Made by a program: the position numbers and the translations under genes. 52,213 nt of DNA from Candidatus Bathyarchaeota archaeon (GTDB lineage: Archaea > Thermoproteota > Bathyarchaeia > Bathyarchaeales > DTEX01): the NCBI GenBank assembly GCA_018396635.1, contig JAGTQE010000010.1:1-52213 (forward strand), in the 5' to 3' direction. Below the pieces are notes generated by a model that had not been told where the DNA came from, did no database searches, and saw nothing but the letters and a program-made list of their open reading frames with translations. Shown one piece after another: positions 17,558 through 33,034 of the stretch. Each line of letters begins with the position of its first letter. Position 1 is the first letter of the stretch.

Positions 17558-17640
17558 ATTATTCTCTCCCAATCTTCATTCTTTAACTAATAGAAGTAAA
17601 GTGAGTCCTCAGATTTATAGGCTTTTCTTTACCCCTGCTT

Positions 17641-19131
17641 TCATGCAACAGCGCTTATCTCAACCTTATGCTTCGCCTTCCATTCCTCAACGGGGACTCC
17701 CAGAGATTTTTCTATCAGAGATCTATGTATTGAATTCATTGTGCAGAACGGTATTATCCTGCCATCTGGGACAGCGTAATGTATAACGCAGCGCTGAACT
17801 CTCTCTAAATCGAAGTTGTACGGATCCATAAAATGCATGGCCGAAATCATAATCATCTTTCTATGTAAATCTCCTAGTGCCTTATAACTGCCCGTCTTGA
17901 GAACCGGCCACACATATTTTCTGAGCATGCCGAGCTTTACGTGGCGTAGCGCCCCAATAAGATGCATCTTAGCCCTAGACTTATGGCCCTTTGATGCTTC
18001 CTCGTATACACGCCTCATAGATCTAATAAAGCCTTCAACGTTGGCATACCTTGTTATTGGAACGATCCGTCCATCCTCGACAAATATATATGTTGCCATT
18101 CCACAGTGCGGATGCGCTGTAAACTCAACATAACGTCTATTTTTTATCGCTCCAACAGCCTTAGATACTGGAACAACAGTCGGTACTGGATAGAAGTCGG
18201 ATATCTTTATCTGCCCATTAGTCTGCTCCTCGACGAGCTTCATCCAGTCCGGTATTGTTATGCGCATGCTCATGCGCTCCTTAGCCGGTATCCTTCCGCA
18301 TAAGGATACTGGCTGAAAGTTTACGCATCTGACAACATCAGAGTTCTTTACAGCAAATCTAATTATATCGCCAACCTCACGGTCATTCACTCCCTTAATA
18401 AGAGTGCACACTAAAACCACGCTATCAATGCCAGCCTTTCTACAGTTTTCTATAGCCTTCTCTTTAACCTCAATTAGGTTGACGCCCCTAGTGAACTTAT
18501 AAACCTCTGGAGACACGCCATCAAACTGCAGGTAGATTGTGCTGACGCCAGCTTCCCTAAGGGTCCGGCAGAAGTCTAGGTCTGAGGCAATCCTAAGTCC
18601 ATTAGTGTTGACCTCGACATGCTTAAAACCCAGCTCCTTCGCCATCCTAATTATTTGAGGAAGATCCTCCCTGATTGTTGGCTCTCCACCAGATAGTTGA
18701 AGGGCCTCTGCTGGGACAGGCTTATTATTACGCAGGTTTACTAGCATCCCTCTTATGTCATCTATTGTCGGCTCGTAGACATATCCAGCTGTTCCAGCCG
18801 TCGCAAAGCATACCGGACAGCGTAGGTTGCAGCGGTTTGTAACATCTATTATTGCGAGGACGGTGTGGGACTTATGCTGCGGGCATATCCCACAGTCATA
18901 TGGGCAGCCGCTTTTCGTTATAGTCCTTGGATTTTCGAGCCCTTCACCAATATAATCAAATATCTTCGCCTTTTCATAAACCCCGTAGTCAGACCAGTAG
19001 ATATCTTGGAATGGACCGTGCTCAGGACATTCCTTCGCAATGTAAACAACATTATTCTCCTCAAATATAACAGCATCTAGAACTTTGAGACATTCTGGGC
19101 AGATGCTTTTCGTCCGCTTTATCTCCCTCAT
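17641..19131 (-). CDS. tes: Radical SAM tetraether-lipid synthase (Tes-like)
   Basis: Resembles the radical SAM enzyme Tes (the MJ0619 type), which joins two archaeol tails to make membrane-spanning tetraether lipids. An N-terminal CPECLKVLDAVIFEE zinc-like block is followed by the family's SGCPYDCGICPQHKSHTV Cys cluster. Then comes the radical SAM site CNLRCPVC (CxxxCxxC), and the SAM-binding LQLSGGEPTIREDLP. Later cysteines (SLCGR, HPHCGM) probably bind further clusters. The ATG at 19131 follows GGTGGGT and fits the family start; a start 15 codons upstream is also open. The gene predicts GDGT-type lipids, consistent with a thermophile or TACK archaeon. Product assignment is by family. Confidence 0.88.
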   Translation of the reverse strand: MREIKRTKSICPECLKVLDAVIFEENNVVYIAKECPEHGPFQDIYWSDYGVYEKAKIFDYIGEGLENPRTITKSGCPYDCGICPQHKSHTVLAIIDVTNRCNLRCPVCFATAGTAGYVYEPTIDDIRGMLVNLRNNKPVPAEALQLSGGEPTIREDLPQIIRMAKELGFKHVEVNTNGLRIASDLDFCRTLREAGVSTIYLQFDGVSPEVYKFTRGVNLIEVKEKAIENCRKAGIDSVVLVCTLIKGVNDREVGDIIRFAVKNSDVVRCVNFQPVSLCGRIPAKERMSMRITIPDWMKLVEEQTNGQIKISDFYPVPTVVPVSKAVGAIKNRRYVEFTAHPHCGMATYIFVEDGRIVPITRYANVEGFIRSMRRVYEEASKGHKSRAKMHLIGALRHVKLGMLRKYVWPVLKTGSYKALGDLHRKMIMISAMHFMDPYNFDLERVQRCVIHYAVPDGRIIPFCTMNSIHRSLIEKSLGVPVEEWKAKHKVEISAVA

Positions 19132-24754: not shown

Positions 24755-24865
24755 ATGATGGCTAAAAAAGAGTATTTTAGACTTTTGTTACATAAGCCTA
24801 TCCACTATATGGCTATTTTTAGGCTTAAATTATTTAGCTGCTTTATAAGTCCTTTTGAATGCTAA
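24755..24865 (+). CDS. Possible 36-aa small protein
   Basis: AAGGAGGTTG, an almost perfect Shine-Dalgarno site, precedes the tandem ATGs at 24755 and 24758. The product (MMAKKEYFRLLLHKPIHYMA and a hydrophobic end) is basic then hydrophobic, possibly membrane-associated. Its stop overlaps the end of the opposite-strand regulator gene by 4 bases. It could also be the decayed start of a longer gene. Support is the ribosome-binding site only. Confidence 0.3.
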   Translation: MMAKKEYFRLLLHKPIHYMAIFRLKLFSCFISPFEC

Positions 24866-25920
24866 TTTCTTGGATGGATATGCCTAATTATTTTGACGAC
24901 GTCCCTAACATGCTTGTTATGTTCATGAATTGCCTTGTTTATAGCTATATTTGCGCATATTGCTCCAATATTTATTATGTTGGTTAGACCCGAAACCATC
25001 GCCCTTAAATAAGGTATCTCTGGAAGCTCCTGCATGAGTCTCTCAGCCTCAATATTAAGGGCACTCCTCATATCAAGTATACTATTCGCAATCTTGATAT
25101 CCCCTGTGAAGAAACAGTCGATAGCTCTTTGAAACACTGTTTTGACAGCCTCGCTAAATTCAAAAAGTCTCTTCAAAATAGGTTCGCTTACTCTATCCCT
25201 ATAAACTTTGAAAGCTATAACTTTTTTCGCTATATCCTCAGAGCAATCACCTATAAGCTCTAGAGCCTGCAGTATTAATCGCATAGCCGGTATGAGAAGC
25301 ACATCAGATATGCCTAATTTTTCAGCAACATCAAAGTTCTTTTGAGCATGTAATAGTAAGCGTGTGCCTAAGTAATAAATTGTATCTGCCTCATCTTCAT
25401 GCTCAATAGCTTCCTTAATTAAGGACTCGTCATTCTCTACTAGGGCTTGGATGGCTTTGGAGAGCACTGTTGAAGAAATTATAGATAGGCGTCTAATTAG
25501 CATATCAATCTTAAATTTAGCTGGATCTAAAGAACATTGTAAAAGTATAGAGTTTGGATTTTCCTCAATTATGCCTAAACCAATGAGTTTGCGCGTTATT
25601 CTTCGAACCGTATCTATGTGGGTCTTATGTATGCGGTTTGATGAAACTACCGTGATTACGCTGCATCCAAGAATATAACTGCCAACAATTAATCTTTCAA
25701 GCATACTGCTTCCATCACATGCATCAACATCAATAATATACTCTTCTTCAACCTCGCCTTCATGGAATAATTGACTTGGCATAATCTTTAATGCGCCATT
25801 TTTATCCGGCACTATAAAGACTATATCGCCTGGCTTAATGCCGTTCTCTTTGACCCATTTATTTGGCAGTGAGACAGTTATAGTTGAGCGGCCAACTCTT
25901 TGTAATTTTCTGCTCTCCAC
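24862..25920 (-). CDS. AbrB-type DNA-binding/PhoU-domain regulator (copy 2)
   Basis: The same two-part architecture as the 16.1 kb protein. It has an AbrB-type start (VESRKLQRVGRSTITVSLPN, then NGIKPGDIVFIVPDKNG) and helical PhoU-like repeats with acidic clusters (EHEDEADTIYYLGTRLLLHA). About 352 aa. I chose GTG 25920 because AGGTGGAG lies just upstream. The two proteins have clearly diverged, so this is an old duplication or two separate family members. It is divergent from the ribbon-helix-helix/GcvH gene and could regulate it through the shared 107-base spacer. No phosphate transporter gene is nearby. A TauE-type anion permease lies 0.8 kb away. Confidence 0.83.
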   Translation of the reverse strand: MESRKLQRVGRSTITVSLPNKWVKENGIKPGDIVFIVPDKNGALKIMPSQLFHEGEVEEEYIIDVDACDGSSMLERLIVGSYILGCSVITVVSSNRIHKTHIDTVRRITRKLIGLGIIEENPNSILLQCSLDPAKFKIDMLIRRLSIISSTVLSKAIQALVENDESLIKEAIEHEDEADTIYYLGTRLLLHAQKNFDVAEKLGISDVLLIPAMRLILQALELIGDCSEDIAKKVIAFKVYRDRVSEPILKRLFEFSEAVKTVFQRAIDCFFTGDIKIANSILDMRSALNIEAERLMQELPEIPYLRAMVSGLTNIINIGAICANIAINKAIHEHNKHVRDVVKIIRHIHPRN

Positions 25921-26027
25921 TACTCTCCACCTATATATTATATTTACCAATAATTATTCTATTTGCGGCAAATATATATTTTTCGCTTATGTTATATATC
26001 ACTCAAGTGTAAAGGAGGGTGAAATGT

Positions 26028-26621
26028 ATGCCTAAATGGAAAACCGTGAGTGTAAGGCAAGAGTTAATGGAGGAAGTTGAGAAAGTCGTTAAAACAGGAC
26101 GTTATAGAAGCATATCAGAGTTTGTCTCTGAAGCCATAAGACTACGCTTAGATGAGGTATTACGCGCTAAAGGCGTTCCAGTCGAGAGAAGAAAAGAAGT
26201 TCTGGCGACGGTAAAGGAACAAATTCTCTATACGCCGAAGCATACTTGGGCCCAGATAACCCCTGAGGGAAATGTACGTGTAGGTATCTCTGATTATGCT
26301 GCCCACCATTTAAAGGGCATAGTTCACGTTATGACGGACCCTGTTGGAAAAGAGATTAGCAAAATGGAGCCAGTAGGTGTCGTTGAAACTTGGATGTTTA
26401 TGTTTGACATATATGCGCCGGTCAGTGGAAAGATAGTCAAGATAAATGAGGATTTGAAGAATGATCCGCGACTTATAAATGAGGATCCTTATGGTAAGGG
26501 CTGGATTCTGGAGATTAAACCAAAGAATTCGGCGGTCCTTGAAGAAGAGCTAAGTGATCTACTAAGTGCAAGAGAGTATAACAAGTGGGTAAGCAAGTTA
26601 GAGGGCAGGTTACGAGAGTAA
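26028..26621 (+). CDS. Ribbon-helix-helix/GcvH-like fusion without lipoyl lysine
   Basis: A 197-aa two-domain protein. Residues 3-45 are a CopG-type ribbon-helix-helix (KWKTVSVRQELMEEVEKVVK, then YRSISEFVSEAIRLRL), a DNA-binding fold. Residues 66-165 match glycine-cleavage H protein: ILYTPKHTWAQI, VRVGISDYAAHHLKGIVHV, VGVVETWMFMFDIYAPVSGK, and NEDPYGKGW. In true GcvH the segment reads ESVKAxSD and its Lys carries lipoate. Here it reads ETWMFMFD, with Met123 in place of Lys, so it cannot be lipoylated there. It is probably a regulator using the H fold as a sensor or protein-interaction module. ATG 26028 sits 6 bases after GGAGGGTG. A TauE-type permease gene follows 64 bases later, perhaps its target. 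Confidence 0.82.
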   Translation: MPKWKTVSVRQELMEEVEKVVKTGRYRSISEFVSEAIRLRLDEVLRAKGVPVERRKEVLATVKEQILYTPKHTWAQITPEGNVRVGISDYAAHHLKGIVHVMTDPVGKEISKMEPVGVVETWMFMFDIYAPVSGKIVKINEDLKNDPRLINEDPYGKGWILEIKPKNSAVLEEELSDLLSAREYNKWVSKLEGRLRE

Positions 26622-26685
26622 AAAGCTAGGGAAATCGTTAAAAACCTCTTCCCTTTCTTCTTTTTTGTTTGGAGGACTATCATTG

Positions 26686-27672
26686 ATGGATCTAGGCTTG
26701 ATCTCTCTTCTTATCGGTGTAAGTTTTATTGTTGGCGTCTTATCCGGCTTCTTTGGTTTCGGTGGAGGTTTTATTCTCACACCTTTTCTTATTAGTTTAG
26801 GCTTTCCCGCTAATCTGTCTATTGGAACAACCATGACACAAATATTTATGTCCTCTATAGCTGCATTAGTTAAGCATAAGCGTTTAGGTAATATTGATCT
26901 GAGGTCGGGTTTAATAATTGCCGTCTTTTCTTTCTTTGGGGCAGAGGCGGGAGCGCAGCTAATTGAATATTTGAAGAGAACTGGAACATATTATTTAAAT
27001 TTCATTGTGAGTTTATCCTACGCTGTGATTTTAGGTTTAATCTCTCTCTGCATTTTTTACGAGAAATACAGGGCTAATAGACAAGAAAGTAAAAGAAGAA
27101 ATCTTTTAAAGGATAAAGTTCGTAGAGTTAGAATTCCACCAGTAATTGATTTACCAAAATCGGAGTCTGGACCAATATCCCTTTGGATAATAGTTTTAAT
27201 AGGCTTATGTACGGGCTTTTTAGCCGGGTTTTTGGGGGCGGGTGGGGGCTTCATACTTGTTCCTATCCTGATATATGTTATCGGATATAGTCCTCCTATC
27301 GCTGTTGGAACATGCGCCTTTCAAATGGTGCTGAATTGTGCTTACGCTTCATTCACTCATGCTACAAAAGGAAATGTTCTCTTCCAAATAGCTGCTCTAA
27401 CATTTATCGGTTCTTTTATCGGCTTGCAGGTTGGCATTTCAGCGGTAAAACACGTAGATGAAACTAAATTTAAAACAGCTTTTGCTTTCTGCCTAGGATC
27501 AATATCCTTAGGCGTTGTTATAAGACTGCTGTCAAAGGAGCTTAGCATGCCTTCTTTGGAATTCCTATCACAAGTAATCATGCTCCTATCAGCTTTTCTT
27601 GTAGCACTCTTCATTATGATATCTACTCTTATAAGGCAGTTGCGAGGGTACCCAAAAATTATTAATAAGTAG
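26686..27672 (+). CDS. TauE/SafE (DUF81) family anion permease
   Basis: A multi-span protein of about 328 aa in the sulfite/organosulfonate exporter family. The two halves repeat the hallmark glycine motif, SGFFGFGGGFILTPFLISLG and AGFLGAGGGFILVPILIYV. Each is followed by a short SIGTTMTQ / AVGTCAFQ stretch. Eight or so hydrophobic segments are visible, with a basic loop (KYRANRQESKRRN) in the middle. ATG 26686 is preceded by GGAGG. The substrate is probably a small sulfur or carboxylate anion, but this family is broad. Co-direction with the GcvH-like regulator suggests a shared function. Confidence 0.85.
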   Translation: MDLGLISLLIGVSFIVGVLSGFFGFGGGFILTPFLISLGFPANLSIGTTMTQIFMSSIAALVKHKRLGNIDLRSGLIIAVFSFFGAEAGAQLIEYLKRTGTYYLNFIVSLSYAVILGLISLCIFYEKYRANRQESKRRNLLKDKVRRVRIPPVIDLPKSESGPISLWIIVLIGLCTGFLAGFLGAGGGFILVPILIYVIGYSPPIAVGTCAFQMVLNCAYASFTHATKGNVLFQIAALTFIGSFIGLQVGISAVKHVDETKFKTAFAFCLGSISLGVVIRLLSKELSMPSLEFLSQVIMLLSAFLVALFIMISTLIRQLRGYPKIINK

Positions 27673-27733: not shown

Positions 27734-28108
27734 ATGATTAGTAGTAGTATTTCCGAGGTTCTATCCAAGTGGTTATCCTCAATTTTTCCGACAAGTATAA
27801 TCCGCTCAGAGGAGGATAGAATTGAGGTTTACGATATTGAAGATAGCTACAGCATAGGTTATAGATTGGCGTACTGTATAATAACTAAGATTGGCGATCA
27901 ATTATCCGACTATTATAGCGGCTTAGGCCGGTGCTTAGCTTACTGCATTGAGAGCGGTTTTGCTCCAACATATATAGCTGTTCCAGAAGGCCATCCGTAC
28001 ACAGACAAATTAAGGAGAATATTGGATGCAATTAATCTACCCATTGGTTTGATAATTGTGAGTTCAAGTGGCGAAGTAAATATCGCTGTAAAGCCACACG
28101 TACCCTAA
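27734..28108 (+). CDS. Hypothetical protein, 124 aa
   Basis: I do not recognise it. An amphipathic N-terminus (SEVLSKWLSSIFPTSII) is followed by an acidic strand (RIEVYDIED), a helix LGRCLAYCIESGFAPTYIAV, then PEGHPYTDKLRRILDA and a strand LPIGLIIVSSSG. The strand-helix-strand pattern with AYCIES... YIAVPE recalls nuclease-like or Rossmann-like folds, but no catalytic set is clear. It sits between the TauE-type permease (61 bases upstream) and the hydrogenase operon (126 bases downstream), co-directional with both. It could belong to either or stand alone. Confidence 0.6.
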   Translation: MISSSISEVLSKWLSSIFPTSIIRSEEDRIEVYDIEDSYSIGYRLAYCIITKIGDQLSDYYSGLGRCLAYCIESGFAPTYIAVPEGHPYTDKLRRILDAINLPIGLIIVSSSGEVNIAVKPHVP

Positions 28109-28234: not shown

Positions 28235-28726
28235 TTGTCGTCTGAAGATAGACGGTTACAGATGCTTGAGCGGATTATGCGGGAACATGGATACGATAAA
28301 AGTGCTCTTCTTGAGATCCTCCATATGGCACATGAATTATACGGTTACTTTGACAAAAACCTTCTTAACTATATATCCAGCCGCTTAAATCTTCCTCCAA
28401 GCCACGTTTATGGAGTTGCTTCATTCTATAATCTCTTTAAATTTAGAAGACCCGGAGAGCACGTTATCTCAGCATGTATGGGTACGGCATGTTATGTGAA
28501 GGGCGTTGAGGAAATAGTGTCGGCGATTGAGAGAGAATTTAATATTAAGCGCGGGGGGTCCAGTCCTGATGGAAGAATCTCATTATTTATTACTCGCTGT
28601 ATTGGGGCCTGTGCGATGGCTCCAAATATAACTATAGATGGTGAAGTTATTGGAAGGGCTACGAAGGAAGCTGTTTTAGAGAGAATAAGGAAGGTTCTTG
28701 GAGGAGGGGTTGTTGAAGCCAGATGA
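28235..28726 (+). CDS. hoxE: NAD-linked hydrogenase subunit HoxE (NuoE-like)
   Basis: The 24-kDa-type subunit carrying a [2Fe-2S] cluster. At 163 aa it has the helical N-terminal part (LLEILHMAHELYGYFDKNLL, HVYGVASFYNLFKF) and a thioredoxin-like fold. The four cluster ligands are Cys81, Cys86 (CMGTAC), Cys122 and Cys126 (CIGAC). The start is a TTG behind GGCGGGGT; an internal ATG at 28262 would also give a nearly complete protein. It is the first gene of five overlapping plus-strand hydrogenase genes and overlaps hoxF. It passes electrons between the flavin subunit and the rest of the diaphorase module. Confidence 0.9.
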   Translation: MSSEDRRLQMLERIMREHGYDKSALLEILHMAHELYGYFDKNLLNYISSRLNLPPSHVYGVASFYNLFKFRRPGEHVISACMGTACYVKGVEEIVSAIEREFNIKRGGSSPDGRISLFITRCIGACAMAPNITIDGEVIGRATKEAVLERIRKVLGGGVVEAR

Positions 28727-30356
28727 TATTTTAAGGGTGGCTGAAAGAGAGGCTGAGAAGCAAAGGGCATATAAGTCTAGAATAAATGTTTGCTGTTCAA
28801 GCGGATGTCTACCCTTCGGCGCACTGCAGGTTTTAAAAGCATTTGAAAGCGCCATTAAAGAGTATGGGCTTGAGGGAGAGTGTAAAGTATCTAGGACTGG
28901 ATGCATAGGGACATGCTCTGTTGGACCGGTGGCTTTAATAGAGCCAGGCGGCTTTCTCTATCAAAATATTACTCCTGAGAATGCCAAGGAGATAGTTAAG
29001 CGCCACATAATTTCTGGCGAACCAGTAAAGGAGTTACTATATGCAAATGAAGCTTTCTTTAAAAAGCAGTATAGGCTTGTCTTAAGAAATGCCGGCAGGA
29101 TAGACCCCCTAAGAATAGAGGAATATATAATGGTGGGCGGCTACTCCGCGCTAATTAAATGCCTAACTAAGATGACTCCGAAAGAGGTTATAGATGAGGT
29201 TATTGCAAGCGGGTTGAGAGGGCGCGGTGGGGCTGGCTTTCCAACAGGGCAGAAATGGAATTTTGTTGCTAGGGAGAAAGCCACGCCAAAATATGTTATT
29301 GCAAATTTGGACGAAGGCGACCCTGGAGTCTTCGCGAACAGAACTCTTGCCGAAGCCGATCCGCATGCGATAATTGAAGGCATGACGATAGCAGCCTATG
29401 CTGTTGGGGCAGAGAAAGGCTACATTTATGTCAGAGCTGAGTATCCTTTAGCGGTCCAAACTTTGAGGGAAGCTCTGAAACAGGCAAAGTCAATGAATCT
29501 TGTAGGGGAGAATATTCTTGAGACCCAGTTTAACTTTGATATAGAGTTAAGAATGGGGGCAGGAGCTTTCGTTGCTGGAGAAGAAACGGGTATACTTGCA
29601 TCTATAGAGGGTCGGAGGGCAACGCCTAGGCCGCGTCCACCATATCCGGCCACTTCAGGATTATGGGGGAAACCTACGTTAATACAGAATGTTGAAACGC
29701 TAGCAAATGTGCCGCTTATAATACTTAATGGTGGAAATTGGTTCGCTAAAATAGGAACACCTAAGTGTACTGGAACAAAATGCTTCTCATTAACTGGTAA
29801 AGTCAATAACCCTGGTCTAATCGAGGTTCCAATGGGCATAACGCTTAGGGAGATAGTGTTTGAGATTGGTGGAGGGGTTCCGGCGGGAAGAAAGTTTAAG
29901 GCCGTGCTGGTTGGCGGCCCCTCCGGCGGGTGTTTACCGGAGAGTGCGCTGGATTTGCCAATAGATTATGAGTCGCTAACTAAAGCTGGCGCCATTATGG
30001 GCTCTGGCGGAATAGTTGTTATCGATGATGAGTCATGCATGGTTGATACTGCCTGGTTCTTTACGGACTTTTGTGTTGATGAGTCGTGCGGCAAATGTGT
30101 TCCCTGTAGGGTTGGATTGCTGAAGATGAGGAATATTCTTGAGAGGATTATGAGGGGTGAAGGTAGATTAGAAGATTTGGATCTTCTCCAGGAGCTAGGT
30201 GAATATGTGAGGGATGTAAGTCTTTGCGGCTTAGGTCAAACAGCTCCAAATCCAATTCTAACAACATTACGTTACTTTAGGGACGAATATATTGCCCACA
30301 TAGTTGATAAGAAATGCCCGGCTGGTAAATGCTTTAGGCTGGAGGCTGAAATATGA
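28713..30356 (+). CDS. hoxF: NAD(P)-reducing hydrogenase flavin subunit HoxF (NuoF-like)
   Basis: The FMN- and NAD(P)-binding subunit. The N-terminus has an extra thioredoxin-like [2Fe-2S] domain (CCSSGC and CIGTC). The FMN/NAD core has GLRGRGGAGFPTGQKW, LDEGDPGVFANR and GAGAFVAGEETGIL. The C-terminal [4Fe-4S] site ESCGKCVPCR with the distal SLCGLG follows, and the protein ends in KKCPAGKCF, whose two cysteines recall HndC/HydB-type proteins. TTG 28713 is chosen because GGAGGAGG ends 5 bases before it; a TTG at 28698 is also open. It overlaps hoxE by 14 bases and hoxU by 4 (ATGA). It would reduce NAD(P)+ with electrons from H2, or run in reverse. Confidence 0.92.
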   Translation: MKPDDILRVAEREAEKQRAYKSRINVCCSSGCLPFGALQVLKAFESAIKEYGLEGECKVSRTGCIGTCSVGPVALIEPGGFLYQNITPENAKEIVKRHIISGEPVKELLYANEAFFKKQYRLVLRNAGRIDPLRIEEYIMVGGYSALIKCLTKMTPKEVIDEVIASGLRGRGGAGFPTGQKWNFVAREKATPKYVIANLDEGDPGVFANRTLAEADPHAIIEGMTIAAYAVGAEKGYIYVRAEYPLAVQTLREALKQAKSMNLVGENILETQFNFDIELRMGAGAFVAGEETGILASIEGRRATPRPRPPYPATSGLWGKPTLIQNVETLANVPLIILNGGNWFAKIGTPKCTGTKCFSLTGKVNNPGLIEVPMGITLREIVFEIGGGVPAGRKFKAVLVGGPSGGCLPESALDLPIDYESLTKAGAIMGSGGIVVIDDESCMVDTAWFFTDFCVDESCGKCVPCRVGLLKMRNILERIMRGEGRLEDLDLLQELGEYVRDVSLCGLGQTAPNPILTTLRYFRDEYIAHIVDKKCPAGKCFRLEAEI

Positions 30357-31060
30357 GTGGAACTGGGGTAGTTAAATTAAAAATAGATGGTGTGGAAGTA
30401 ACGGCTAATGAAGGAGAAACTATTTTAAGTGCTGCGAAAAGAGCTGGAATAAAGATTCCGGCGTTATGTTATTTGGATGGTTTAAGCAGTTATGGTGGCT
30501 GCCGCCTTTGCATAGTTGAGGTTAAAGGCTCGCCGAGGCTTTTCCCAGCATGCACAACCCCGGTTAGTAATGGGATGGAAGTTACTACAGACTCGCCAAA
30601 GCTGAGAAAATATAGGAAGATGACCATAGAACTTCTGCTGTCGGAGAAACCACATATATGCGCTATTTGCATTGCAAACGGCAATTGCGAGCTACAGGAC
30701 TTGGCAAGAGAGTTTGGCGTTGATCATTTAAGGGTTGAGCGAGAATGGAAAAGTCAAAAGATCGACTTGTCGCATAGCTTCCTAGTCTTAGATAACAACA
30801 GGTGTATCTTATGTACTCGGTGCTTGAGAGTATGCGATGAGATTGAGGGTGTTCATGCTTTAGATATAAAGATGAGAGGAAAAGATTCTCAGATAATAAT
30901 AGACATCGATGACGACTGGGGTTCTTCTATATCATGCACATCATGTAGAAAATGCGCTAGAGTATGTCCCGTTGGAGCAATATATGTCAGAGACGAGCCT
31001 ATCTCAAGGACGAAAAATAAGGATATAGCGCAATTCATACTTCTTAGGAGGAGACGTTAA
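30353..31060 (+). CDS. hoxU: Hydrogenase diaphorase ferredoxin subunit HoxU
   Basis: The NuoG N-terminal-like iron-sulfur subunit, 235 aa. A plant-type [2Fe-2S] ferredoxin domain comes first (CYLDGLSSYGGCRLCIVEV and a later CTT). It is followed by the histidine/cysteine [4Fe-4S] block (HICAICIANGNCELQDL), and two ferredoxin-type CxxCxxC sets (CILCTRCLRVC, CTSCRKCARVCPVG). It links HoxF to the hydrogenase pair HoxYH. It starts at an ATGA overlap with hoxF and ends in a TAATG overlap with hoxY, so the operon is tightly coupled. Confidence 0.92.
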   Translation: MSGTGVVKLKIDGVEVTANEGETILSAAKRAGIKIPALCYLDGLSSYGGCRLCIVEVKGSPRLFPACTTPVSNGMEVTTDSPKLRKYRKMTIELLLSEKPHICAICIANGNCELQDLAREFGVDHLRVEREWKSQKIDLSHSFLVLDNNRCILCTRCLRVCDEIEGVHALDIKMRGKDSQIIIDIDDDWGSSISCTSCRKCARVCPVGAIYVRDEPISRTKNKDIAQFILLRRRR

Positions 31061-31602
31061 TGAGCAGGGAAAAAAGGATTAATTTTGCGACAGTTTGGCT
31101 TAGTGGTTGCTCGGGCTGTCATATGTCATTTTTAGACCAAGATGAGCTACTAATAGATCTATCTCAGAAAATTAACTTAGTTTATAGCCCGCTTACAGAT
31201 GTTAAAGTCTTTCCAGATGATGTTGATGTAACGATTGTTGAGGGTGCCATTGGAAATGTTGAGCAAATGGAGCTACTTAAAAAAGTCAGGGAGCGTACAA
31301 AGATCCTTATAGCTATTGGCGACTGCGCAATAACGGGAAATGTGCCAGCCATGAGAAATATTATTAACAATAGTCCTGAGGAGGTTCTTAAAAGAGCTTA
31401 TGTCGAGACAGCAGATAAAAATCCTATAATTCCAACAGAGGTCCCGAAATTATTGAGACGTGTCCTCCCACTAAATGAAGTTATTAAAGTTGACTATTAT
31501 ATTCCAGGCTGCCCGCCTCCAGCTTCTCTTATAAATTACGTGTTAACTGAAGTTTTGGCTGGCAGAACGCCAGTTATGGAGGGTAAAGCCAAATATGGAT
31601 AG
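31060..31602 (+). CDS. hoxY: [NiFe]-hydrogenase small subunit HoxY
   Basis: The small subunit, 180 aa, holding the proximal [4Fe-4S] cluster. Ligands are visible as GCSGCH (Cys17 and Cys20), GDCAITGN and PGCPPP. There is no Tat signal, so the enzyme is cytoplasmic, in keeping with group 3 hydrogenases. Short length and a single cluster agree with HoxY rather than longer uptake-type small subunits. The ATG shares a base with the hoxU stop (TAATG), and GGAGGAG lies just upstream. It ends 8 bases inside hoxH. Confidence 0.92.
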   Translation: MSREKRINFATVWLSGCSGCHMSFLDQDELLIDLSQKINLVYSPLTDVKVFPDDVDVTIVEGAIGNVEQMELLKKVRERTKILIAIGDCAITGNVPAMRNIINNSPEEVLKRAYVETADKNPIIPTEVPKLLRRVLPLNEVIKVDYYIPGCPPPASLINYVLTEVLAGRTPVMEGKAKYG

Positions 31603-33034
31603 GGAAAGAAGCAGCATAATAGAGATAAGTCCAGTTACGAGAATTGAGGGTCACGCAAAGGTGACTATACATTTAAATAACGATGGATCTGTCAGAGAAG
31701 CCAGGTTTCATGTGACTGACTTTCGTGGGTTTGAAAAGTTTTGTGAGGGGCGACCGTTTTATGAGATGCCAAGCATAATGTCCAGAATTTGCGGGATATG
31801 TCCTGTTAGCCATCTTCTTGCATCGGCGAAGGCATGCGACGACATATTATCTGTTGATATTCCCGAAACAGCTATCCTACTTAGGCGCCTGATGCATATG
31901 GGGCAAATCATTCAATCCCATGCATTGAGTTTCTTCTTTTTATCGCTACCAGATTTCCTTTTGGGCATGGACTTTGACCCGCATAAGAGGAACATTTTCT
32001 ATTTAATAGAAAATCATCCTGAGGTAATGAAGCAAGGCATAAAGATTAGAGCATTTGGGCAAAAAATAATCGAATATTTATCTGGAAAAAGAATTCATTC
32101 AAGCGAGTGGATTGTTCCGGGAGGCGTTAGGTCACCGTTATCTAAAGATAAAGCTGAAAAAATCATGAGCGAATACAATGATATATTAACTATGACGCTT
32201 GAGAACATCTCTAAATTCAAAAGAATCATGAAAGATTTAAGCTGTGAAATAGAAAGCTTTGGAGACTTTCCAACATACTATATGGGTTTAGTTACACCCC
32301 ATGGTGAACTGGAGCATTATGACGGGCTACTTAGAATTGTTGATGAAAAGGGGCAGATAGTTGTTAATAAAGCTGATCCAAAAAGATATTATGAATATAT
32401 CGGCGAGGCAGTTGAAAATTGGTCTTACATGAAGTTTCCATATTATAAGCCATTGGGCTATCCGAGAGGAGTATATAGGGTTGGCCCGCTGGCGAGACTT
32501 AATATAGTTTCCAAATGCGGCACACCATTAGCCGATAAAGAGCTAGAAGAATTCAGAGAGTGGGGAGAAAATCATGTGGTTCAGAACACACTACTATACC
32601 ATTATGCACGCTTAATTGAGATGCTTTTCTGCATAGAGAAGGTTAAGGAAATCTTAGATAATCCAGAAACATACTCTGATAATATTCAGGCGATGGCTTC
32701 AGTCAATAAGCATATAGGAGTCGGCGTAGTTGAGGCTCCAAGAGGCACACTTATACATCACTATAAGGTTAATAGGCGCGGTTTGGTTGAGCAAGCTAAT
32801 CTGATAATTGCAACTGAGCACAATAACTTGGCATTCAACATTGCTATAACTCAAGCGGCGAAGAGATATATCAATGGTGGGGCTGCCAGCAGGGATCTGT
32901 TGAATAGGATTGAAGCAGTTATACGCGCCTTCGATCCATGCCTAAGCTGCGCTACGCATGCGTGGAAACCGATAAACTTAATTGTTGAAATATATGACTC
33001 GAAAGGAAATATAATACAGAGGTTGACTAAATAG
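31595..33034 (+). CDS. hoxH: [NiFe]-hydrogenase large subunit HoxH
   Basis: The catalytic Ni-Fe subunit, 479 aa. The nickel-binding cysteines are in RICGICPVSH (Cys66, Cys69) and DPCLSCATHA (Cys449, Cys452). RIEGHAKVTI is the usual N-terminal motif. The form RICGICPVSH fits group 3 NAD(P)-linked enzymes. After His455 there is a 24-residue C-terminal extension, the peptide normally removed by a maturation protease. No protease or hyp maturation gene is found in the window, so they must lie elsewhere. It closes the five-gene hoxEFUYH operon. Confidence 0.93.
   Translation: MDRERSSIIEISPVTRIEGHAKVTIHLNNDGSVREARFHVTDFRGFEKFCEGRPFYEMPSIMSRICGICPVSHLLASAKACDDILSVDIPETAILLRRLMHMGQIIQSHALSFFFLSLPDFLLGMDFDPHKRNIFYLIENHPEVMKQGIKIRAFGQKIIEYLSGKRIHSSEWIVPGGVRSPLSKDKAEKIMSEYNDILTMTLENISKFKRIMKDLSCEIESFGDFPTYYMGLVTPHGELEHYDGLLRIVDEKGQIVVNKADPKRYYEYIGEAVENWSYMKFPYYKPLGYPRGVYRVGPLARLNIVSKCGTPLADKELEEFREWGENHVVQNTLLYHYARLIEMLFCIEKVKEILDNPETYSDNIQAMASVNKHIGVGVVEAPRGTLIHHYKVNRRGLVEQANLIIATEHNNLAFNIAITQAAKRYINGGAASRDLLNRIEAVIRAFDPCLSCATHAWKPINLIVEIYDSKGNIIQRLTK

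Follow-up and report, generated by a model that had tools for sequence, protein, structure and literature searches.

The window analysed here, a 52,213-nucleotide stretch of DNA from a Candidatus Bathyarchaeota archaeon, contains a gene whose product joins a ribbon-helix-helix (RHH) domain to a GcvH (H-protein) fold. The gene and its surroundings are as follows.

24862-25950, minus strand: divergent AbrB(MazE-type)-PhoU regulator, from a domain search
25938-25949, plus strand: TTATATTTACCA, degenerate copy of a candidate operator, located from its distance to the start (~85 bp upstream) and from comparison with relatives
25961-25973, no strand: perfect palindrome ATTTGC-G-GCAAAT (ATTTGCGGCAAAT), directly upstream of the TATA-like ATATATATTT
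26028-26621, plus strand: RHH-GcvH gene, 197 aa, coordinates including the stop
26028-26165, plus strand: RHH (CopG/ParD-like) domain, aa 1-46, Pfam RHH_1
26226-26594, plus strand: GcvH-fold domain, aa 67-189, from Pfam GCV_H and Foldseek matches to H-proteins
26385-26408, plus strand: former lipoyl hairpin ETWMFMFD, aa 120-127, with tip W122-M123-F124, from the alignment and model strands 115-121/125-129
26665-27672, plus strand: TauE/SafE-type permease (Pfam TauE, 158.7 bits)
27734-28108, plus strand: 124-aa protein of cluster c23, conserved in 6 loci
28235-28726, plus strand: NuoE-like [2Fe-2S] subunit
28698-30356, plus strand: NuoF-like FMN/NADH-binding subunit
30353-31060, plus strand: NuoG-like Fe-S subunit
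31060-31602, plus strand: [NiFe]-hydrogenase small subunit (Oxidored_q6; MvhG-like)
31595-33034, plus strand: [NiFe]-hydrogenase large subunit (MvhA-like)

The RHH-GcvH reading frame begins with ATG and has GGAGG upstream, and the true start of the divergent AbrB-PhoU gene probably lies near 25920. A preliminary description of this DNA, made from the letters alone, had proposed that a CopG-type domain is fused here to an otherwise well-kept H-protein fold, and both halves of that proposal are borne out. The RHH signature (PF01402) is present at aa 6-42 with a score of 21.0 bits, just above the cut-off of 20.5, and the segment SEFVSEAIRLR is near-invariant in an alignment of the family; by sequence, the protein is an RHH protein. 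The fold expected of a functional H-protein is found by Pfam (GCV_H, PF01597, aa 67-189, 111.8 bits, E 2.5e-32), in the AlphaFold2 model (mean pLDDT 80, and 84-94 across most of aa 71-150, the GcvH core) and by Foldseek, with the C-terminal part of the model superposing on the E. coli H-protein 3a8j_E over 126 columns at a TM-score of 0.88 (target length) and an rmsd of 2.0 A.

To find relatives, 84,980 species genomes were scanned, and 398 genomes from the phylum and the 163 available from the order were searched. Full-length fusions were found in one order of Bathyarchaeia only: none lay outside the order among the 398 phylum genomes, and, of the top 80 loci in the wider scan, all that matched over the full length came from Bathyarchaeota or unnamed archaea. 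Within the order, 41 of the 163 genomes carry at least one fusion. Duplicate removal left 54 candidate open reading frames, two of which were set aside as unreadable (one RHH-only, one N-masked), giving about 52 distinct copies; three more are fragments that end before the lipoyl site, so that 49 copies can be read there, 38 of a main type (A) and 11 of a second type (B). Some genomes hold tandem paralogues, both lacking the Lys (L020:3079-4319, L098-L101, L129-L132), and in these pairs the upstream gene has a WWF-type hairpin tip and the downstream gene a WMF-type tip. The window's own assembly contains a second copy of the locus on a 5577-bp contig (G000:C22, L143), with an RHH-GcvH protein 86% identical and the same gene order as far as NuoE, which probably reflects co-binning of a relative and not a duplication. 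Several assemblies (L022/L024, L023/L146, L138) break within the fusion gene, at about aa 97-125, perhaps through strain variation or a repeat.

The same description had placed Met123 at the position of the lipoyl Lys. Met123 (26394-26396) does occupy it, in E120-T-W-M123-F-M-F-D127, and the description's own caveat, a misalignment with a lipoylated Lys nearby, can be dismissed because the flanking GcvH landmarks E120, D127, Y129, P131, G134, N140, P147, N151-DPY and W159 all align and the hairpin of the window protein has no Lys, nor any other basic residue. When the position is tabulated across the family, as had been suggested, the lipoyl-accepting Lys of ES[VM]K is found in none of the 49 readable fusions. 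Type A copies have Met in 37 cases and Leu in one; of the 11 type B copies, 8 have Trp, and the other three have Phe, Leu or Asn at a column left uncertain by a short insertion. The aromatic neighbours are conserved as anticipated, with Trp122 invariant in both types (38/38 and 11/11) and M123/F124 near-invariant in type A. A basic residue occurs in the hairpin of only four divergent type A copies (Lys in L100 and L101, Arg in L129 and L132), in each case two positions past the lipoyl position. A second change concerns a conserved Glu close to the arm, in the HEW motif; in pea H-protein this residue lines the cavity that houses the aminomethyl-lipoyl arm. The Glu is kept in 66 of 72 Lys-bearing GcvH proteins and appears in no fusion among the residues listed, nearly all of which are Thr, Met, Ile or Val.

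Loss of lipoylation by the host is ruled out as the cause of the missing Lys, since the same genome encodes a canonical GcvH, GcvP and a protein of the lipoate-ligase family (PF03099). Measured against GcvH proper (PF01597; NF002270), the fusion shares the fold and most signature residues and passes the NCBIfam subfamily model PRK01202 (128.5 bits against a threshold of 117), but falls below the gcvH equivalog TIGR00527 (106.7 against 115.85 bits) and differs in the lost lipoyl Lys, the lost HEW Glu and the added RHH domain. Because the defining Lys is absent, the protein is neither a functional GcvH nor an LbpA. One way to account for what remains is that the GcvH domain serves a regulator as a small-molecule sensor, the lipoyl-arm pocket and aromatic tip binding a thiol, a disulfide or free lipoate. 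Losing both Lys and Glu would reshape the space once taken up by the arm and leave the rest of the fold intact, and an RHH domain joined to a ligand domain is a known plan, as in NikR. However, W122, M123 and F124 sit at the tip of the hairpin in the model, which is expected of a contact surface and not of a buried pocket, and we regard a sensor of this kind as rather unlikely.

When the GcvH domain was placed in a maximum-likelihood tree, all fusions grouped with two standalone proteins that also lack the Lys (L030 and L136) in one clade with support of 100/99, apart from all of the other 75 rows, including every Lys-bearing GcvH tested. The split is kept when the lipoyl columns and the Glu column are removed (SH-aLRT 99) and when the two long branches, L030 and L136, are also left out (98). 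A single loss of the Lys is the simplest reading of these sequences. Close pairs compared along the entire gene give a dN/dS of 0.02-0.06, with low values in each of the two domains, which rules out a decaying pseudogene and indicates that the altered GcvH domain is being maintained; as about 52 homologues keep the architecture under this constraint, the fusion is not a chance joining. Two variants of the arrangement were also seen: a standalone GcvH with the ETWMFMFD motif but without RHH (L030:7917-8411), in a genome that also carries both fusion types, and a related RHH domain with a different, Cys-containing C-terminus (L139:14260-14619), on the other side of AbrB-PhoU.

The neighbours named in the preliminary description, AbrB-PhoU divergent and a TauE-type permease co-directional, are correct for the window. 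Family-wide, the TauE context does not hold: a permease directly beside the fusion is seen only in the window's genus, in which the fusion gene heads a run of TauE, the 124-aa protein, NuoE, NuoF, NuoG and the [NiFe]-hydrogenase. The description had overlooked the wider context, an Hdr/[NiFe]-hydrogenase operon, in which the fusion stands at the head with a GltD-like flavoprotein downstream (23 of 31 distinct loci). After the GltD-like gene, as far as contigs reach, come FlpD/MvhD-winged-helix, double HdrA, MvhD, HdrC, HdrB, MvhG and MvhA, and one locus (L019) has an intermediate order of RHH-GcvH, TauE, GltD-like and Hdr. The feature shared by the loci is a cytosolic hydrogenase/electron-bifurcation operon. 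Two conserved proteins without a family accompany the locus, c6 (L009:6250-6714) and the c23 protein of the window, for which Pfam and NCBIfam gave no match.

The same operon encodes a protein with an FlpD/MvhD electron-transfer domain and a C-terminal winged helix (L009:10435-11184, homologues in 41 genomes), modelled by AlphaFold2 at pLDDT 85 with an FlpD part matching MvhD of the Hdr-Mvh complex 5odc; it is a candidate for a second redox-linked DNA-binding fusion. RHH-GcvH is present in 41 genomes, full-length FlpD-winged-helix in 41 and both in 31 (odds ratio 35, Fisher p 3e-16, with shared ancestry inflating the p value and all of these co-occurrence counts). In 30 of the 31 genomes with both, the two genes share a contig, with starts separated by 2.0-3.6 kb; the remaining genome has them on separate contigs. 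The unit of FlpD-winged-helix and HdrAA is tandemly duplicated in two genomes (L017:10000-16585, L020:5713-12304).

As far as the available part of the published account of type II HdrA clusters goes (PMC12054007), the 1000-aa double HdrA downstream fits type II, with MvhD and HdrBC following, while the GltD-like flavoprotein, the FlpD-winged-helix fusion and the [NiFe]-hydrogenase genes are additions in our loci; that part mentions no GcvH-like or RHH protein. Two sibling genomes carry Lys-bearing GcvH genes on either side of a paralogous type II HdrA cluster, with a flavin disulfide oxidoreductase alongside (L159:4306-4722 and 17793-18263; L160:4175-4591 and 17598-18068), an arrangement suggesting that Hdr has a lipoylated carrier as partner in settings other than sulfur oxidation.

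A close parallel is LbpA, the lipoate-binding proteins of sHdr sulfur oxidation, all 95 aligned members of which keep the Lys (PMC6067878). Like our fusion, LbpA is a GcvH-like protein encoded with Hdr-type genes. Its Lys is strictly conserved and its operon is the sHdr operon, whereas the fusion lacks the Lys, stands with HdrABC/hydrogenase genes and carries a predicted DNA-binding domain of its own. This parallel lends some weight to the idea that the fusion serves the Hdr/hydrogenase complex chiefly as a structural or assembly subunit, using its RHH for dimerisation with DNA binding incidental: linkage to Hdr and hydrogenase genes is tight, LbpA proteins, as lipoyl carriers of H-protein type, partner Hdr-like complexes in sulfur oxidisers (PMC6067878), and the standalone L030 protein dispenses with RHH altogether. 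Yet the gene is also kept by genomes that lack the HdrAA operon and have another hydrogenase operon downstream of it, the RHH residues are conserved and a palindrome is enriched upstream. We consider a mainly structural role improbable.

The enriched palindrome is TAGTA-N2-TACTA (TAGTATTTACTA), found between AbrB-PhoU and RHH-GcvH in many relatives. Sites matching 9 or more of the 10 arm bases occur 15 times in 5.4 kb of these intergenic regions and 8 times in the remaining 405 kb, against a mean of 0.5 and a maximum of 3 in mononucleotide shuffles, although kinship among the loci makes the counts non-independent. In most loci the centre of the palindrome is 83-87 bp upstream of RHH-GcvH. In the window alone the palindrome is not significant (48 matches at up to 3 mismatches, with 73 expected). 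The perfect palindrome at 25961-25973 is possibly a second operator or a promoter element.

Another way to view this region is that AbrB-PhoU is its real regulator and that RHH-GcvH acts elsewhere or merely modulates. AbrB-PhoU is divergent from the fusion in 29 of the 30 loci with upstream sequence, and 8-30 bp separate its start from the palindrome, a position at which autorepression would operate. Intergenic regions longer than about 150 bp, however, usually have two copies, one near each gene, the second of which stays ~86 bp from RHH-GcvH. The duplication implies that both promoters need the site, without deciding which protein binds, and on balance we think it very unlikely that AbrB-PhoU is the real regulator here. 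For RHH-GcvH, the position at the head of an operon, the divergent neighbour and the enriched candidate operator all fit the transcription-factor role that the preliminary description had put forward on sequence grounds; against a regulator stand the degeneracy of the window's palindrome and an RHH_1 match that barely clears its cut-off here and falls below it in the second (type B) paralogue.

With slightly better than even confidence, we propose that RHH-GcvH is an autoregulatory one-component regulator of [NiFe]-hydrogenase/Hdr operons, with a GcvH domain that docks on a partner via its hydrophobic tip. The RHH domain would dimerise and bind the palindromic operator between the divergent AbrB-PhoU and its own operon; its targets would be cytosolic [NiFe]-hydrogenase and heterodisulfide-reductase-type operons, most likely with autoregulation as well. 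Lipoylation of the GcvH domain would have been lost a single time, ahead of the family's diversification, and the domain would now act as an effector, with the conserved WMF (or WWF) hairpin tip, the former seat of the lipoyl arm, docking into a partner that otherwise handles lipoylated H-protein. Candidates for this partner are an Hdr complex and the flavin disulfide oxidoreductase whose gene adjoins that of canonical GcvH. As the window's genome shows no HdrAA operon, an HdrAA-type Hdr complex cannot be the partner there; its canonical GcvH does adjoin a flavin disulfide oxidoreductase, at C32:5964-7307 of that genome. Docking would then set the amount of regulator free to bind DNA, in whichever direction regulation runs.

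A more specific and quite tentative version is that the disabled H-protein is a decoy of lipoylated GcvH, competing for its docking site on an electron-bifurcating Hdr/flavoprotein partner, sensing the engagement of the lipoyl carrier and signalling directly to hydrogenase/Hdr promoters. As decoys, the WMF and WWF paralogues of tandem-pair genomes might read different states or heterodimerise.

One-component regulators often borrow metabolic folds, and NikR and PutA are RHH regulators with an effector domain, which in NikR is a nickel-binding domain. RHH-GcvH resembles them in having an N-terminal RHH followed by a C-terminal domain that could read metabolic state, but its effector has the H-protein fold instead, and its similarity to NikR models is weak. 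A literature search, conducted outside most subscription journals, found no paper on an RHH-GcvH fusion or on an H-protein fold as a regulator. RHH-GcvH would thus follow the RHH regulator plan with a borrowed metabolic domain, the plan being known and the H-protein fold within it apparently new, and it seems that an ancient carrier has been recruited for regulation. If this is confirmed, a testable question follows: do Hdr complexes also work with lipoylated H-proteins in settings other than sulfur oxidation? The Lys-bearing GcvH genes found next to type II HdrA clusters likewise hint at such a partnership. Bathyarchaeia are abundant and mostly uncultured, and a confirmed regulator would offer a handle on how they control hydrogen metabolism and electron bifurcation.
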